Source of the DNA: Microbacterium sp.
GTDB taxonomy: Bacteria > Actinomycetota > Actinomycetes > Actinomycetales > Microbacteriaceae
Reading direction: 5' to 3'
DNA: 64,000 nucleotides
Assembly (NCBI RefSeq): GCF_017305435.1
Contig: NZ_JAFKIP010000006.1
Span: 186,001 to 250,000, forward strand
Position numbers and translations under genes: made by a program
Shown: piece after piece, positions 19,766 through 26,034 of the stretch
How positions within the stretch are numbered: the stretch's first letter is position 1
How the letters are laid out: every line of letters begins with the position of its first letter
Notes under the pieces: model-generated
Database searches by the model: none
What the model was told of the DNA's origin: nothing
The model's input: only the letters and a program-made list of their open reading frames with translations

Positions 19766-19803
19766 ATCACGAAACCCTCGGCCGCGGCCGAGGGTTTCGT
19801 GAT
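19766..19803. repeat. 38-bp perfect palindrome at left island edge
   Basis: Each half is 19 bp and the match is exact, with no loop. It could form a very stable hairpin on either strand. No T-run follows on the minus strand, and on the plus strand only GATGACTT follows. It may be a bidirectional terminator for the divergent surroundings or a mark of the insertion boundary; sequence to its right is clearly lower in G+C. Confidence 0.7.
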
Positions 19804-20211
19804 GACTTCGGTAGGCACAGTACACGACAACTCGAATAAGTCAGCCCTGCTGCCGCCACCCCTGATGGAGCTGCGGAAACTATCTAGTCTCGCGCCGAAT
19901 CGACCGCATCAAGCTCACTCTCTGGGCAGATGCCTCGCCCCCTGCGTCGTCGGCTCGAGCCAGCCCTCATCGCTGAGATAGTCGAGAAGTAGCTGAGATC
20001 GTCGAGAAGTACCAGTCTGGCACCACGACGCAGTCTCTCTGTGACCAGTACAACCTCTCGAAGGGCGGCCTACTGAAGCTGCTGCGCGACGAAGGCGTCC
20101 AGCTCCGCGGTCAGCCGCGGCTCCGACAGCTTGCCGCACCGAAGCGCTGGAAAGGATGCCCGCGGGAGATGTCAACTCATTCACCGAGTCCCGCACGACC
20201 AACCACCGATG
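19804..20211. other. degraded intergenic segment at left end of island
   Basis: About 400 bp of lower G+C sequence with no intact gene. It contains the broken helix-turn-helix ORF listed separately. A short stretch around 19890-19935 may be further recombinase debris, but I cannot place it in a family. Confidence 0.4.
19930..20123 (+). pseudogene. broken recombinase-type helix-turn-helix ORF
   Basis: From the ATG at 19930 the frame reads MPRPLRRRLEPALIAEIVEK and hits a stop at 19990. The same 20 bp (19972-19991) is repeated once in tandem (19992-20011, one mismatch), and the reading continues in another frame as IVEKYQSGTTTQSLCDQYNL then SKGGLLKLLRDEGVQLRGQP. Removing one copy restores a continuous HTH protein of the type often found as the DNA-binding tail of serine recombinases or as small ORFs beside integrases. 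So a 20-bp duplication killed it by frameshift. Confidence 0.65.
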
Positions 20212-22617
20212 CTAGGCGCCCAGACGCGCGAGCACCTCGATCTTGACGGGGAATGGCGCGACCTTTGCACCCTCGCGCTCGAAGTGCTTTACGTCCGTAC
20301 TGCTCCACGCTTCCATCGTCGTCGCGAAGACAATCCGGTTCGCCCGCAGCGCCTTCGCGACTTGCAGCATCTTCTCCGCATGATCCTCACGGTTCGCTTT
20401 CCCATTGAACTTCCCGTTCGACTTGCCCTCCACGAGCACGACCTCCCTGTTCACACTCGCAATCACGTCAATCTCTGCCACTGTCCTCCCTGTCTGAAGC
20501 TCGTAGAACTCAAGCTCCGGCGAGTCGATATAGGACCTGCTCGAGCCGCGCAGTGCTGCAGCGCCGAGGAGTACAGTGTCGCCGTTAGCGCCAAGGAGCT
20601 CGCGAAATGCGGCATATAGGTTATAGAACCATCGCGGCTCCGACCGCTTCTCCTTCCAGCGGGCGGAGACAAGGGCATTCATTGCCGCGCAGCGCGAACA
20701 CTCGTACACCTGGGCGACGCGGTCAGCGTCGACGAACGAGGGGCGACCGCACTCTGTGCAATCGAGAATGAGCCCACGGCGAAGTAGCCGGGAGACGGTT
20801 AGGCGATCAACGAGCGACGTCGTCGCGTCCGCATCGCCGCCGAACAGTGTCCGCATCGCCTCGAAGGTAAGGAATGGGTCGAGATCGTCGAGAACGACTG
20901 TCTCCGGATCAGCCTTCCGCTCATCGCTGGTAGGCCCCTTCTCACGCGGAATGAACGCGCGCAGCATTCCTACGTTCTCTGGCGTCATTAGGTCCAGGAG
21001 CGCAGCGCGGGACCCTAGCCGTCTCCGGATCAGCTCCGCCTGGCGCCCGGGACGTGATAGGCGCACGCCGAGCCCTTCCGGCCCTGCCATCGCCTCCACC
21101 CACGCCATCATTGACAGCCCCCGGAGGCGTGGTCGACCGATGCGGCCCGGCAGGAACGACCCCGCCATGACCAGCCCCATCGAATGTGGGTCGATCGTCA
21201 CAGACTCGCGGCTTGCACGGAGACTAACGGACGGAAGCGGCCCCTCGTCCGCGACGAGCGCGTGGGCGGGAATGTCCCGTCCGCGCGGCATCTTGTCGCC
21301 GAACCACGCAATGTCCACGTACCAGTACGGCACCCACCCAGAGTTGAGCGGATAAAGCAGTTCGGACGGCGTAGGCGTCTCAAGGCCTGAGATCGCCTCG
21401 CTCGACCCGTTCTCATTCGTCCGCACCGGGATCGACTTCGAGGCCCCGATGTGCTCGTCCACAACGTACTCGAGATAGCCGCCATCAATGATTGGCGGCC
21501 CGACGCGTACCGTCTCCTCGCGTCGGTCTCGCACGGATTGCAGGCCCGGCGGCAGCGGGGAATCAACGATCCGCGGCGCCACCTTGTTGAGATAAAGGGT
21601 TGGCTCAGATGATGAGCTGACGGACATATGTGCGCCGCCGCCTTCGAGATCCGTCGCCAACATCCATGTCGCTCGTTGTACCTGGTCACGGAAAGCCTCG
21701 CCGTCGTCAATGAGCGCGCGGGGGAGCCAGATGCCACTTCCGACGAGGCGGTCGTAGGCGACGGCGAGGGCGAAGTCGATGGCGGTGTCGCCGATGACCA
21801 CGGCTGCGCGGTCCTCGATATAGCCATTCGATACCTGGAGCAGCCGTTGGTCGGCAAGGAACCAATTCTCAAGACCCGCCGAGGCCTTGGTCTCGATCGT
21901 CGTGGAGTTCCAGATGAGCGAGGCCGGGGCATCGTCAACCGATCGGATCAACCAACCGAGGTCGTCCGCTGTCGGCTCCGGTCGCGCACCGGTGGCACTC
22001 TCGCTCTGCGCGACACCGACCCGCATGGCGGCCATGAGGCCAAAGTCGGATCGCCAGCCACTCGAGGCGGCGAGACGCGCCTGCAATGGGTCCGCCGGCG
22101 GCGGCGAGGGTGCTAGACCTCGATTGAAGTGAGCATTGAGGTCGCGCGCGCGGAGCCTGGTCAGCTGCTCCCTCTGCCTCGCCGGATCATCTCGGAACCG
22201 GACGGAACGCATGGGCGAGCACCAGGAGACAACCTCGTCGCGTGCCTCATCGGACTCGCGCACCGTCGTGTGTTGGTGATGGTTGGCAATCATCCGGCGA
22301 CGCTCCACGTCATCGGCAACCCCATTGATGCGGATGTGGCCGGGATACCACTCCTCGAAAAGCTGCCAGTGAAGGTCGATCGAGACGACATGATCGGGGT
22401 CATAGGCTCGCACGATCTCGGCGAACTCAGACGCCGGCCGAGAGGACCTGATGTCAAACGGCACGAGGATCCAGCTGCCTCCGCCCCAGTAGCCCGAGGC
22501 GATAGTCAACGCGGTCATCACCCAATCGCGCCAATGCTCGTCGTCTGCCACAAGGATCGCGATCCGCGGGGGTCGGAGAGCGACGGAGGCCGAGATGAAG
22601 TCAACTTCCGATGCCAT
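20212..22617 (-). CDS. large protein with zinc ribbon and PD-(D/E)XK nuclease domain (candidate defence effector)
   Basis: 801 residues from the ATG at 22617. Family not recognised. Visible parts: an N-terminal Rossmann-like domain (residues about 17-80: IAILVADDEHWRDWV, YWGGGSWILVPFD, YDPDHVVSIDLHW); a long central region of 500 residues; a C-terminal zinc ribbon (Cys620, 623, 640, 643, in DCTECG and YECSRC); and a restriction-endonuclease fold at about 700-800 with EIDVIASVNREVVLVEGKS, giving the triad Asp717, Glu730, Lys732. Codon use and G+C are unlike the flanking genome. It is divergent from a KAP NTPase gene across 143 bp, so I infer a two-gene module in which the N-terminus senses and the nuclease acts on DNA. 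Confidence 0.75.
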   Translation of the reverse strand: MASEVDFISASVALRPPRIAILVADDEHWRDWVMTALTIASGYWGGGSWILVPFDIRSSRPASEFAEIVRAYDPDHVVSIDLHWQLFEEWYPGHIRINGVADDVERRRMIANHHQHTTVRESDEARDEVVSWCSPMRSVRFRDDPARQREQLTRLRARDLNAHFNRGLAPSPPPADPLQARLAASSGWRSDFGLMAAMRVGVAQSESATGARPEPTADDLGWLIRSVDDAPASLIWNSTTIETKASAGLENWFLADQRLLQVSNGYIEDRAAVVIGDTAIDFALAVAYDRLVGSGIWLPRALIDDGEAFRDQVQRATWMLATDLEGGGAHMSVSSSSEPTLYLNKVAPRIVDSPLPPGLQSVRDRREETVRVGPPIIDGGYLEYVVDEHIGASKSIPVRTNENGSSEAISGLETPTPSELLYPLNSGWVPYWYVDIAWFGDKMPRGRDIPAHALVADEGPLPSVSLRASRESVTIDPHSMGLVMAGSFLPGRIGRPRLRGLSMMAWVEAMAGPEGLGVRLSRPGRQAELIRRRLGSRAALLDLMTPENVGMLRAFIPREKGPTSDERKADPETVVLDDLDPFLTFEAMRTLFGGDADATTSLVDRLTVSRLLRRGLILDCTECGRPSFVDADRVAQVYECSRCAAMNALVSARWKEKRSEPRWFYNLYAAFRELLGANGDTVLLGAAALRGSSRSYIDSPELEFYELQTGRTVAEIDVIASVNREVVLVEGKSNGKFNGKANREDHAEKMLQVAKALRANRIVFATTMEAWSSTDVKHFEREGAKVAPFPVKIEVLARLGA

Positions 22618-22760
22618 AAGAGCATCTAAGCGCAGGGTATCGACAACCCTCGATCACAACCGGGCCGTGAACGCGAACGTTTCGTTCTCTGACCGAAGCT
22701 GTGACTGTTCACCTGACGAGTCATGCGCTATCCGTACGCTCAGCTTCTACCCTTGAATCG
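22618..22760. promoter_or_regulatory. shared divergent promoter region of nuclease and KAP NTPase genes
   Basis: 143 bp separates the two starts. It includes an imperfect dyad with arms GAACG (22669-22673) and CGTTC (22683-22687). No regulator gene is adjacent. Shared control of both genes is inferred. Confidence 0.35.
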
Positions 22761-24608
22761 ATGGGGGTAGGCAGCGTACAGGGAGTGGACCAGTTGAACG
22801 AGACGACATGGTTCTCAGATGATGCCGCAGCTGATGTGGCCGGCGGACTTGGGCGACAGGATTTCGTCGAGCGTGTCTGGGACGTGATCCGAGAATCTCA
22901 CTCGCTAAAGTCGTCGACGGTCTTCAGCCTCGTCGGACCGTGGGGAACCGGGAAGACCTCGATCCTCGATTGGCTCGCCCGTCGCGCACTAGCCGATGAA
23001 CGCAAGCCTCGCTGGGTGACGGTCAAGTTCAACCCGTGGGACTATGCCGACCCCTCGTCATTGCAGCTCGGATTCTTCAACGAGCTCGCGGCCGCCTTTC
23101 AGAGGAAAGCGAGTCTGATCAAGGTCCGTTCTCGCGTCGCGGCTTTCGGACGAGCGGTTGCTCCACTCGGGGTCATAGGAGCCCTCGGGGGTGCGAACAT
23201 GACGGAAGCCATCGCGGCGGCAGCTGATCTTGTCGACCCAGATTCAAGCGCCGCTGCGAGCCGTGCGAAGCTCGAGAAGGCACTGGTGTCTGCCGCCACG
23301 CCCATTCTTGTCGTTATCGACGATCTCGACCGCGTGACCGCTGAGGAGTTGCTCCTCACGCTCAAGCTCGTGCGCCAGCTCGGGCGGCTGCCTCACGTGC
23401 ACTACTTGCTGTCTTACGACGAGTCCACCGTCCTAGATGTTCTCAGCCGAACCAGCTTGGTCGGCAAGCACTCTCTCTCGAGAGCGAGAGAGTATATGGA
23501 GAAGGTCGTACAGGTCCGCTTCGATATTCCTCACTTGCGTCCTAACGATGCGTTGCGTCTCACGAACCGCGGCTTGGAGGAACTCGCCGACCACGGCGGA
23601 TTGTCGCTAAGTGTGCCCGATACGGAGCGGTTCTCAACTGCGTATTTCTCGTTCCTGGCCGAGCGATTCAACACCCCGCGAGCGCTGAAGAGGTTCTTCA
23701 CCCAGCTGCGGCTTCTTTCTGCATCGATGTCCGACGAGTTGGACCTTCCTGACTTCTTCGTTCTGACGTGGCTGCGCACGCTCGAACCCGGCGTTTACGC
23801 GTTGCTTCAGGCGCATCGCGGAGAGTTGACTGGCAGCGACTTACCCCGCGCGCTTGCGCGCTCAGACGCAAACATAGAGCAGCTGCGCGCTCGTGCTGAC
23901 GAGTGGCGGACGAGCTTCAAGCAGGCAGGTACCCGCGATAAGGACCTCGAAGGCGTCGCATCAGCAGTTGGCTACTTGTTCCCCGCGTTCGCAAGCGTCT
24001 GGTCTGGGTCGAGCGCGTCAAGTGGCGCCCGACCGCGCGGAGTGGCGAACGAAAAGTACTTCGATCGCTACTTCAGCTTCGGCCTCACCGAAGATGACGT
24101 AGCGGACGCGACGGTCAGGGCGAGTATCGAGGCGCATCAGGCGGGCCAGAACGCGGACGAAACGGACGCCGAGATCCGTCGAGTGATAGCTGTCGAACCC
24201 GCATTGGTCCTGGACAAGGTCGCGAGAGAGTTGGAGCCGGTCAGTCGGTCGTCGTTAAGCCTCATTGAGTGGTTGGCGTCCCTTCACTCTGCTGTCCCGG
24301 AACACAACGACATCATCGATCCCGCTCGACGCTTTGAGGCAATCCTCGCGCTGCAGATGCGACTTCTCGACGTGGCCGACACCGCCGCCAGCGTGCGAGC
24401 GCTCGCCGAGCAGGACGCGACCCTTATGTCGATAGTGGTGGAACGGGCCTGCCGGGAGTACGACGGCGAGCCCAGCTCACCCATGCTCCTTGACGATCCC
24501 GCGCGAGGTGCATTCCGAACAGCACTGAACACATACCTGTCCGACACAAACCCCGCCACAATGGGACAACCGCGAGAGGACGGCGGCCTGGCGATGGTTC
24601 TTCGTTGA
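22761..24608 (+). CDS. KAP-family P-loop NTPase, apparently frameshifted near the 3' end
   Basis: 615 residues from the ATG at 22761; GTG codons at 22701 and 22786 are alternatives and no site has a convincing ribosome signal. Walker A is GPWGTGKTS (about residues 59-67), followed by the KAP hallmark VKFNPWDY at 88-95 and Walker B PILVVIDDLDR at 181-191. Between them lies a weakly hydrophobic segment where KAP proteins usually insert membrane helices. KAP NTPases include PifA, which blocks phage T7, and QatA of the QatABCD defence system. The frame ends 20 codons after a C-run at 24551-24554, beyond which coding continues in the next frame, so the intact protein would be about 714 residues. 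It is paired with the divergent nuclease gene. Confidence 0.85.
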   Translation: MGVGSVQGVDQLNETTWFSDDAAADVAGGLGRQDFVERVWDVIRESHSLKSSTVFSLVGPWGTGKTSILDWLARRALADERKPRWVTVKFNPWDYADPSSLQLGFFNELAAAFQRKASLIKVRSRVAAFGRAVAPLGVIGALGGANMTEAIAAAADLVDPDSSAAASRAKLEKALVSAATPILVVIDDLDRVTAEELLLTLKLVRQLGRLPHVHYLLSYDESTVLDVLSRTSLVGKHSLSRAREYMEKVVQVRFDIPHLRPNDALRLTNRGLEELADHGGLSLSVPDTERFSTAYFSFLAERFNTPRALKRFFTQLRLLSASMSDELDLPDFFVLTWLRTLEPGVYALLQAHRGELTGSDLPRALARSDANIEQLRARADEWRTSFKQAGTRDKDLEGVASAVGYLFPAFASVWSGSSASSGARPRGVANEKYFDRYFSFGLTEDDVADATVRASIEAHQAGQNADETDAEIRRVIAVEPALVLDKVARELEPVSRSSLSLIEWLASLHSAVPEHNDIIDPARRFEAILALQMRLLDVADTAASVRALAEQDATLMSIVVERACREYDGEPSSPMLLDDPARGAFRTALNTYLSDTNPATMGQPREDGGLAMVLR

Positions 24609-24906
24609 CCTACCGGGCTTCCAGCTTTGGTTCCAGGATCTCAGAGAACGGGTCGGTGACATCGACGCAATGTGCCTGTTCGTCAACATCTCCACGTCGA
24701 TAGGCACGCGCACGCCCATCTCGCGCGTGAGGGGCTTTGACCACGACAACGCTTCGAAGCTCCTCGATCTCGCGGAAGTCCGATCTGCGCATGAAGGCAA
24801 ACTCATTGACGCGGAAGTGCCGAAAGGCATGTTTCGCGATGACCCAACGGACTCTGCCGATAACCGGCGACACGCCGTTTATGGGTGGCTACGCGAGGGC
24901 GAGTAG
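24555..24906 (+). pseudogene. displaced C-terminal part of the KAP NTPase
   Basis: About 117 codons open in the +1 frame relative to the KAP gene. It begins PPQWDNRERTAAWRWFFVDL, then LPGFQLWFQDLRERV, CLFVNISTSIGTRTPISRV and HAVYGWLREGE before TAG at 24904. It has no start codon of its own at the beginning, reads smoothly on from the KAP sequence if one C is removed from the CCCC run, and has sensible codon use. A mutation, a sequencing error or programmed slippage are all possible; the last would be unusual at CCCC. Confidence 0.65.
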
Positions 24907-25038
24907 CCCTCTCCCCCGGGAGCATCGACGTGTGGACGGTCGCGCCCTCACGTCGTCATCCAAGCTCATCCAATCCGCCCCGAGTCCTCGACAACGGCAG
25001 GATCGCACCGCATGCTGCTCGTGATCGAAGGACGGCGC
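24907..25038. other. short intergenic stretch in the island
   Basis: 132 bp between the KAP remnant and the integrase remnant. No gene, repeat or regulatory pattern recognised. Confidence 0.4.
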
Positions 25039-25204
25039 ATGGGCACGATCGAGCGCCGCCGACAACGACACCACGAGAGGTCGTCGCTATCGCGCGTGGT
25101 ATCGGACGCCGACCAAGCGACAAACCGATAAGCGCGGCTTTCGCACGAAGCGGGAGGCAGCGGAGTTCCGTCCGCCCGTTGCCCCGCTTACGGTGGATGA
25201 GTGA
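25039..25204 (+). pseudogene. truncated, frameshifted tyrosine integrase N-terminus
   Basis: The ATG at 25039 starts MGTIER, then one extra base shifts the frame; the correct frame reads DNDTTRGRRYRAWYRTPT and RQTDKRGFRTKREAAEF, the arm-DNA-binding domain that opens actinobacterial phage and ICE integrases. It then runs into VAPLTVDE and a stop, with about 15 codons of the usual linker missing and no core-binding or catalytic domain. So only about 55 codons remain of a gene that is normally 350-420 codons long. It marks the end of a decayed mobile element next to tRNA-Met. Confidence 0.75.
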
Positions 25205-25737
25205 CCTTCCGCCCCGCTGACCGCGTCTACGTCGACGAGTCCAAGGCGCGAGGCTACTACGTCGTCGCGACCGCCTCCGTGGCCGGAGACGTTCGAGCGT
25301 CTGATCGGGCACTGCGAGATCTCCTCAAGCCTGGTCAGCGCCGCATCCACTTCAAGAGTGAGAGTGACAGTCGCCGTCGCCAGATCCTCTCCTGCATGTG
25401 CACTCTCGATGTGCGGGTGTCCGTCTGGATCGTCAAACAGCGCTCCGACAAGGAAGCGCGACCGCTGTCCCTTGGCGCGCTCACAGCAGAGGCGGTCCGC
25501 GCTGGCGTGACGCAGTTGATCATCGAACGAGACGAATCACTCGAGCGCGCCGACCGCCGACTAATCGCCGACGCGATCCGCCGTGCTGGATCCTCCGAGA
25601 TGCAGTATCGGCACGTCGCGCCGCACGAGCATCCGCTGCTGTGGGTGAGCGATGCCGTCGCCTGGTGCTATTCGAATGGCGGCGACTGGATCCGTCGCGT
25701 CAATGCGATCGTCGAGTCCCGAGTCACCCGGCTGTAG
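25201..25737 (+). CDS. DUF3800-like protein
   Basis: 178 residues from a GTG at 25201, overlapping the stop of the integrase wreck. The N-terminal VYVDESKARGYYVVATASVA resembles DUF3800, a family with an RNase H-like fold whose first acidic residues (here Asp12, Glu13) open the active site. A second acidic cluster (IIERDESLERADRRLIADAI) and a last Asp in HPLLWVSDAVAWCY fit the pattern. DUF3800 proteins are common cargo of mobile elements; their activity is mostly untested. It could be a third part of the defence cargo or an independent passenger. Confidence 0.6.
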   Translation: MTFRPADRVYVDESKARGYYVVATASVAGDVRASDRALRDLLKPGQRRIHFKSESDSRRRQILSCMCTLDVRVSVWIVKQRSDKEARPLSLGALTAEAVRAGVTQLIIERDESLERADRRLIADAIRRAGSSEMQYRHVAPHEHPLLWVSDAVAWCYSNGGDWIRRVNAIVESRVTRL

Positions 25738-25745
25738 AAAAACGT

Positions 25746-25785
25746 GAGCCTGGCTCGTCATACCGTCCGGAAGACTGCCAGGCTC
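25746..25785 (+). terminator. inverted repeat after the DUF3800-like gene
   Basis: Nine-base arms (25746-25754, 25777-25785) separated by 22 nt, directly after the stop codon. No T-run. A second inverted repeat with seven-base arms follows at 25798-25827. They probably serve as transcription stops between island and tRNA genes. Confidence 0.4.
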
Positions 25786-25927
25786 CGAGGGCTACTGCCC
25801 GCCGTGCTACAAGTGTACCTCGGCGGGTCCGCGACCGGCCAGTGCGATGTGTTCTCGACGACTCAACCGGCACAAAACCGGCACAGCCCCTCCCCCACGC
25901 CCCTCTACCCATCGTCCCAATAACGAC

Positions 25928-25953
25928 AAAACCCCCGGAAGTCCGGGGGGTTG
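25928..25953 (-). terminator. Rho-independent terminator of the tRNA-Thr/tRNA-Met unit
   Basis: Eight-base arms CCCCCGGA / TCCGGGGG (25932-25939, 25942-25949) with the A-run at 25928-25931 reading as TTTT on the minus strand. It lies 8 bp past the tRNA-Met 3' end, as expected. Confidence 0.85.
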
Positions 25954-25960
25954 TTGTCTG

Positions 25961-26034
25961 TAGCAGGAGCGGGGCTTGAACCCGCGACCTCACGATTATG
26001 AGTCGTGCGCTCTCACCAACTGAGCTACCCTGCC
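25961..26034 (-). tRNA. tRNA-Met (CAT), elongator type
   Basis: Read on the minus strand it folds into a full cloverleaf: acceptor GGCAGGG with wobble pairs at both ends, D arm GCTCAGTTGGTGAGAGC, anticodon stem CACGA/TCGTG around CTCATAA, and T arm GCGGGTTCAAGCCCCGC. CCA is not encoded. It lacks the three G-C pairs of the anticodon stem of initiator tRNA, so it is elongator Met; a lysidine-modified Ile tRNA is less likely. The foreign island lies directly beyond its 3' end. Confidence 0.93.

Follow-up and report, generated by a model that had tools for sequence, protein, structure and literature searches.

We describe here an 801-residue protein encoded in a 64,000-nucleotide stretch of DNA from Microbacterium sp. 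(the window: assembly GCF_017305435.1, contig NZ_JAFKIP010000006.1, positions 186,001 to 250,000 of the forward strand), which belongs to a nuclease family that is unnamed and has no entry in the libraries searched; this family is our finding. The gene is intact, its product has a nuclease fold with the catalytic quartet, its key residues are conserved, the gene is mobile and has no conserved KAP NTPase partner, and its host genome gives no match to Cas10 or to a SMODS cyclase. Based on these observations, we see about an even chance that the gene encodes a self-contained, horizontally mobile, ligand-gated anti-invader nuclease, which would need neither CRISPR nor the KAP NTPase gene that lies next to it, the latter most likely being separate. 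Within this reading, we infer the ligand gating, the substrate and the antiviral role.

Domains and conservation of the nuclease

Position numbers are window coordinates, and residue numbers refer to the 801-residue protein of the window unless the KAP protein is named. The gene and the domains of its product are the following.

20212..22617, minus strand: gene for the 801-residue protein (open reading frame with ATG start, intact)
22333..22566, minus strand: first Rossmann-like unit, residues 18-95 (predicted local distance difference test score, pLDDT, 41-77)
21538..21825, minus strand: second Rossmann-like unit, residues 265-360, with loops GDxxxDF and SxS; candidate CARF-like sensor
20785..21117, minus strand: winged-helix-like region, residues 501-611
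20638..20784, minus strand: four-Cys zinc ribbon, residues 612-660 (Cys 620, 623, 640 and 643)
20215..20637, minus strand: PD-(D/E)XK nuclease, residues 661-801 (E715-x-D717...E730-x-K732)

Conservation was counted in an alignment of 29 members of the family, from which three broken copies (L006, L096 and L104) were left out. C620, C623, C640 and C643 are each present in 29/29 members, and the catalytic quartet is kept almost throughout (E715 in 28/29, D717 and E730 in 29/29, K732 in 27/29), so that the conservation of the zinc and nuclease residues is far above chance. An initial annotation of this DNA, made from the sequence alone, had placed the four cysteines of the ribbon, as well as Asp717, Glu730 and Lys732 of the nuclease, at just these positions, and both assignments hold across the relatives. 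Two further residues that are also usual in the PD-(D/E)XK fold, E701 and K749, are found in 20 and 21 of the 29 members, respectively. Upstream, the first Rossmann-like unit keeps W44 (27/29), G45 (25/29), G46 (24/29) and D75 (24/29), and the second one D281 (28/29), S335 (25/29) and S337 (24/29).

In the predicted structure, residues 661-800 have a block pLDDT of 81-94 and the order of elements is that of PD-(D/E)XK nucleases, several of which match the prediction in the PDB. The initial annotation had named a fold outside the nuclease superfamily for residues 700-801 as the result that would overturn it; the fold prediction and the PDB matches agree in placing these residues within the superfamily. 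Its Rossmann-like N-terminus is plausible, but residues 1-100 were modelled only at block pLDDT 40-77, and residues 1-407, modelled from the single sequence, reached a pLDDT of 33.

Within the E-value limits set, the 801-residue protein had no counterpart in Pfam, PADLOC or PHROGs; a viral structure library gave no match below 1e-3 and NCBIfam a single chance-level row (E 0.17), while the nuclease sequence compared with the PDB sequences gave nothing useful. No description of the family was met in those parts of the literature that were examined, beyond which no literature search by the sequence features of the family was made.

Likeness to CARF nucleases and a possible signal

When the predicted fold was used for structure searches, CARF nucleases (VC1899, Cdn1, Can2 and Card1) came at the top of both lists, and two VIA-align rows placed residues 268-360 on the CARF domain of Can2 and of Cdn1, with root-mean-square deviations of 18.6 and 8.4 A. 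Can2/Card1/Cdn1 and VC1899 (DUF1887, PF09002) are thus the best matches of the predicted fold, VC1899 being the nearest; nevertheless, these proteins are about 340-440 residues long with one CARF domain, whereas the family described here has about 800 residues, two Rossmann-like units and a zinc ribbon. Judged by sequence, the family does not belong to PF09002 or to the Can2-type proteins. The TGGTK motif is absent from the window's protein, no PF09002 row was obtained for it, for 8 members of alignment A5 or for 10 further members, and a search for PF09002 across 149 genomes returned one match, below the cut-off. Profile comparison with Can2-type proteins likewise gave no homology (hhalign probabilities of 0.1 and 0.3%, a weak test with only 3 Can2-type sequences).

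The closest architecture may be that of Can1 (PDB 6sce), which has, as predicted for the 801-residue protein, two Rossmann-type units in one long chain, a helix-turn-helix near the nuclease and a PD-(D/E)XK site with the same E-x-D...E-x-K quartet, the catalytic residues of Can1 used for the comparison being those given in PMC6981274. In Can1, however, CARF domains take turns with nuclease-like ones, and type III CRISPR supplies the cA4 (cyclic tetra-adenylate); the protein described here has instead a four-Cys zinc ribbon, a host without a Cas10 match, no sequence link to Can1 and, in the predicted model, a candidate sensor fold. Orphan CARF proteins are already on record: VC1899 is described as one that occurs without type III CRISPR and does not respond to cA4 (PMC7969007), and a 2014 survey of CARF proteins reports that some CARF genes have no CRISPR linkage (PMC4012209).

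Known sources of a signal were sought in the host. The Cas10 model (PF22335) gave no match in the genome of the window; of the 16 genomes or records that contain the family, it was over the cut-off in one (G495) and below it in another (G326), and controls were positive in 5/14. The model for SMODS, the one cyclase clade covered, likewise found nothing in the genome of the window, and it was over the cut-off in 2 of the 16 (G495 and G690), with one more below. Since neither Cas10 nor SMODS matched, no known source of a cyclic oligonucleotide is evident in this genome, within the same limit on cyclase clades. On these results, neither an ancillary effector of type III CRISPR nor, as far as the SMODS clade goes, an effector of a cyclic-oligonucleotide-based antiphage signalling system (CBASS) is supported in this host.

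We propose that the winged helix, the zinc ribbon and the PD-(D/E)XK domain, with its Can1-type E-x-D...E-x-K quartet, would form a C-terminal effector, and that the two upstream Rossmann-like units are most likely a sensor, whose small ligand might be a nucleotide signal produced upon infection. The ligand-bound sensor would then release the nuclease to attack nucleic acid, either that of the invader or all of it, in the way that cA4 activates Can1/Can2, with no type III CRISPR complex involved and no requirement for the KAP protein. More specifically, and only tentatively, the members may constitute an undescribed family of CRISPR-free, signal-gated nucleases of about 800 residues in Actinobacteria, in which a Can1-like chain joins two diverged CARF-type sensor units, a zinc-ribbon/winged-helix grip and a PD-(D/E)XK cutter, is carried on plasmids, on islands in chromosomes and even by a phage, and obeys a messenger from a synthase not yet known. 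If our reading is right, the CARF-nuclease architecture is not confined to type III CRISPR but is also used by a solo, mobile family, and the gating of orphan CARF-type nucleases such as VC1899 becomes testable.

It is also conceivable, although we hold it to be unlikely, that the protein is a restriction-like nuclease with no second messenger, in which the winged helix and zinc ribbon would read DNA modification or structure and foreign DNA would be cut directly, in the manner of Mrr, the Rossmann-like units being a scaffold or metabolite binders. Against this stand the CARF nucleases at the head of both fold lists and the conserved loops of the second Rossmann-like unit, which suggest a binding site; additionally, most members have no methylase among their named neighbours, which were not scanned systematically.

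The KAP neighbour

The neighbour of the nuclease gene and the stretch that separates them are as follows.

22701..24608, plus strand: gene for a PifA-like KAP NTPase (635 residues, GTG start, intact); neighbour, probably not a partner
22618..22700: 83-bp intergenic stretch between the divergent starts, the nuclease and KAP genes being head to head

A scan of 20100-25900 found no sigma-70-like promoter site. The initial annotation had both reading frames right, but its end for the pair, 24906, lies about 300 bp past the KAP stop codon. Its description of the neighbour as a KAP NTPase with intact Walker A, FNPWDY and Walker B is confirmed by the motifs GPWGTGKT (KAP residue 79), FNPWDY (110) and ILVVIDDLDR (202) and by the match to Pfam KAP_NTPase (2.7e-44). 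The protein also matches PADLOC PifA (1.5e-48), over KAP residues 68-497 and covering the profile in part (36-474 of 720), and by its sequence it has a PifA-like KAP P-loop domain; the PDB sequences gave one row, at 0.055. PifA is the KAP NTPase behind the exclusion of T7 by the F plasmid. The neighbour most likely represents another exclusion gene, PifA-like and independent of the nuclease, that has been stacked with it at one tRNA hotspot. QatA of QatABCD is a KAP-type ATPase as well, which the island has in common with that system. QatABCD itself was rejected, the KAP protein scoring 41 bits with QatA against a curated cut-off of 600; in a search confined to the island, neither of its two remaining intact proteins matched a Qat model, and the distinctness from QatABCD that had been claimed stands.

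It had further been proposed that the two genes form one defence system, in which the KAP protein would sense or drive and the nuclease execute. The intact head-to-head pair, with its 83 bp between starts, speaks for such a system, which we nevertheless regard as quite improbable given the surroundings of the relatives. In order to survey these, 32 nuclease neighbourhoods (the window, L003-L012, L020-L023, L053, L084-L096 and L103-L105) were covered by six-frame profile search. The flanks are mostly about 8 kb, with one side under 4 kb (735-3780 bp) in ten of them (L005, L008-L011, L021, L023, L053, L091 and L093); the upstream side, where any head-to-head partner would be sited, is at least 3.0 kb in all except L023 (735 bp). 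No KAP gene was found in 30 of the 32, the closest relative (L007) having none within about 8 kb on either side, and an intact one stands beside the nuclease in the window only.

The reverse search gave the same picture, with no nuclease relative in 16/16 KAP neighbourhoods (11 from the order and 5 of 31 matching plasmid records). In four of these, the sequence on one side of the KAP gene is no longer than 150 bp, and in a fifth no longer than 400 bp. Of the 248 genomes of the order, 12 have a KAP relative and 2 have the nuclease, the window's genome being counted in both and the only one with the two together. Since few nuclease neighbourhoods have a KAP gene and no KAP neighbourhood has a nuclease, the two genes do not make up a conserved unit, and the KAP-nuclease module is ruled out as such. 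The initial annotation had itself stated that homologues never found with a KAP gene would count against it: this is nearly the case, but there is one exception, with a broken KAP gene.

That exception (L089, from genome G1021) weighs against our reading of an independent nuclease. At L089:7406-8043, a distant, open-framed family gene has a decayed KAP gene head to head with it, of which the N- and C-terminal pieces are left and the middle is gone. A gene-called pass over L084-L096 had shown no KAP gene, and the six-frame pass exposed this broken one. Two head-to-head cases exceed the expectation from random placement, which argues for the two-gene system, would fit the stacking of defence genes too, and leaves a weak functional link possible. 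Nevertheless, the L089 gene is of another KAP subtype (that of L045/L046), to which the window's KAP protein has no match at E 0.01, and it has decayed while the nuclease frame stays open. Moreover, the two KAP-adjacent members are far apart on the tree, so two separate pairing events would be needed. The arrangement in the window is probably a stacking of separate genes at a hotspot, and the case shows that head-to-head neighbours on a mobile island need not be partners.

Among the KAP relatives, a plasmid of Streptomyces aurantiacus (L048:5938-10721) has a PifA-like KAP gene with a SecA-annotated gene behind it, on the strand of the KAP gene; this is possibly another neighbour of KAP genes.

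Distribution of the family and the tRNA island

Relatives of the nuclease are sparse and scattered through Actinobacteria: some are on plasmids and others on chromosomes, one closes a type I restriction operon and one lies in a phage head-gene block; besides the window, 31 loci have them. The single-sequence search over the order gave the two genomes already mentioned, and profile searches found the gene in 5/396 genomes of the phylum and 14/394 of the class (the window's own included in both). Searches around other centres gave 4/35 (all four known already) and 4/200 (three new), and further relatives came from 4 plasmid records, 6 genome contigs (one being the genome behind G246) and 1 phage contig. 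No relative was present in 50,697 phage records, and scans of viral contigs gave that phage contig (L053, recovered again as L070) and no other. The nearest member, from a metagenome-assembled genome of Rhodoglobus (L007), has 51% identity, and the next one 33%.

In the actinophage contig (L053:3670-6285, IMGVR_UViG_3300031456_000025), the family gene sits in inverted orientation, as a cargo gene might, with genes for the major head protein and for head closure on its two sides, which suggests a use in phage-phage competition. In L093 (genome G810, L093:2369-10816) it comes after HsdM, HsdS and HsdR, shares their strand and starts only 15 bp from HsdR, and it adjoins a gene for a DUF262/type IV-like enzyme; in L004 it is near an N6-methylase and an 1800-residue ATPase, although L004 and L012 share a common block and are not independent. 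Nine neighbours picked by eye were scanned with PADLOC, and 8/9 matched at E <= 0.001, some weakly and with no background control.

Two loci suggest a different function, in which the protein would be a TnsA-like transposition nuclease whose partners are a transposase like TnsB and an ATPase like TnsC. At L005:7284-12545, Mu-transposase-C and ATP-binding genes come after the family gene and share its direction, and related Mu-type transposase and ATP-binding genes lie beside the broken family copy at L006:2281-6531, a set that we take to resemble TnsABC. However, such genes occur in only these 2 of the 15 neighbourhoods compared (out of 32), the KAP neighbourhood L050 has similarly annotated genes with no nuclease, and TnsA has a domain order unlike that of the 801-residue protein, all of which make this function highly improbable.

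In a further locus (L104:7785-11317, genome G1165), the family gene is in two pieces about 0.9 kb apart.

In the window, the two genes lie on an island with the following other features.

19783..25939: strain-variable island of about 6.2 kb, delimited by the break of collinearity with G676 and by base composition
25960..26034, minus strand: tRNA-Met at the end of the island, an integration hotspot of the genus
19983..20126, plus strand: fragment of a DNA-binding protein (phrog_1303, 5.2e-6), presumably of recombinase type, at the left end of the island
25052..25165, plus strand: possible N-terminal fragment of a tyrosine integrase, picked by eye from the translation
25201..25737, plus strand: DUF3800-like gene at the tRNA end (Pfam DUF3800, E 0.0036, 18.5 bits, below the cut-off of 21)

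In G676, the nearest relative found by way of the right flank, collinearity with the window breaks off after 19782 and resumes at 25940, and the contents in between are different, in agreement with the mobility of the island. The guanine-plus-cytosine content of the island is 62.7%, against 71.0% in the rest of the window, and lies under that of all 92 windows of equal length outside it (68.4-73.8%); a low-G+C island adjoining a tRNA gene had indeed been recognized from the start. The likeness of the 25052..25165 fragment to a tyrosine integrase is our assumption, and a PHROG search with it gave no match. The DUF3800-like gene has no tie to the nuclease finding. A second copy of the tRNA end, sought in the window as a left attachment site, gave only chance-level matches. 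In at least 9 of 58 other genomes, a partial second copy of the 3' end of the tRNA-Met is present within 60 kb on the same contig, which is the pattern that an integration hotspot would show. The congeners with this duplicated end (window 25946-26002) include G676, G660, G038, G653, G650, G647, G634, G640 and G069.
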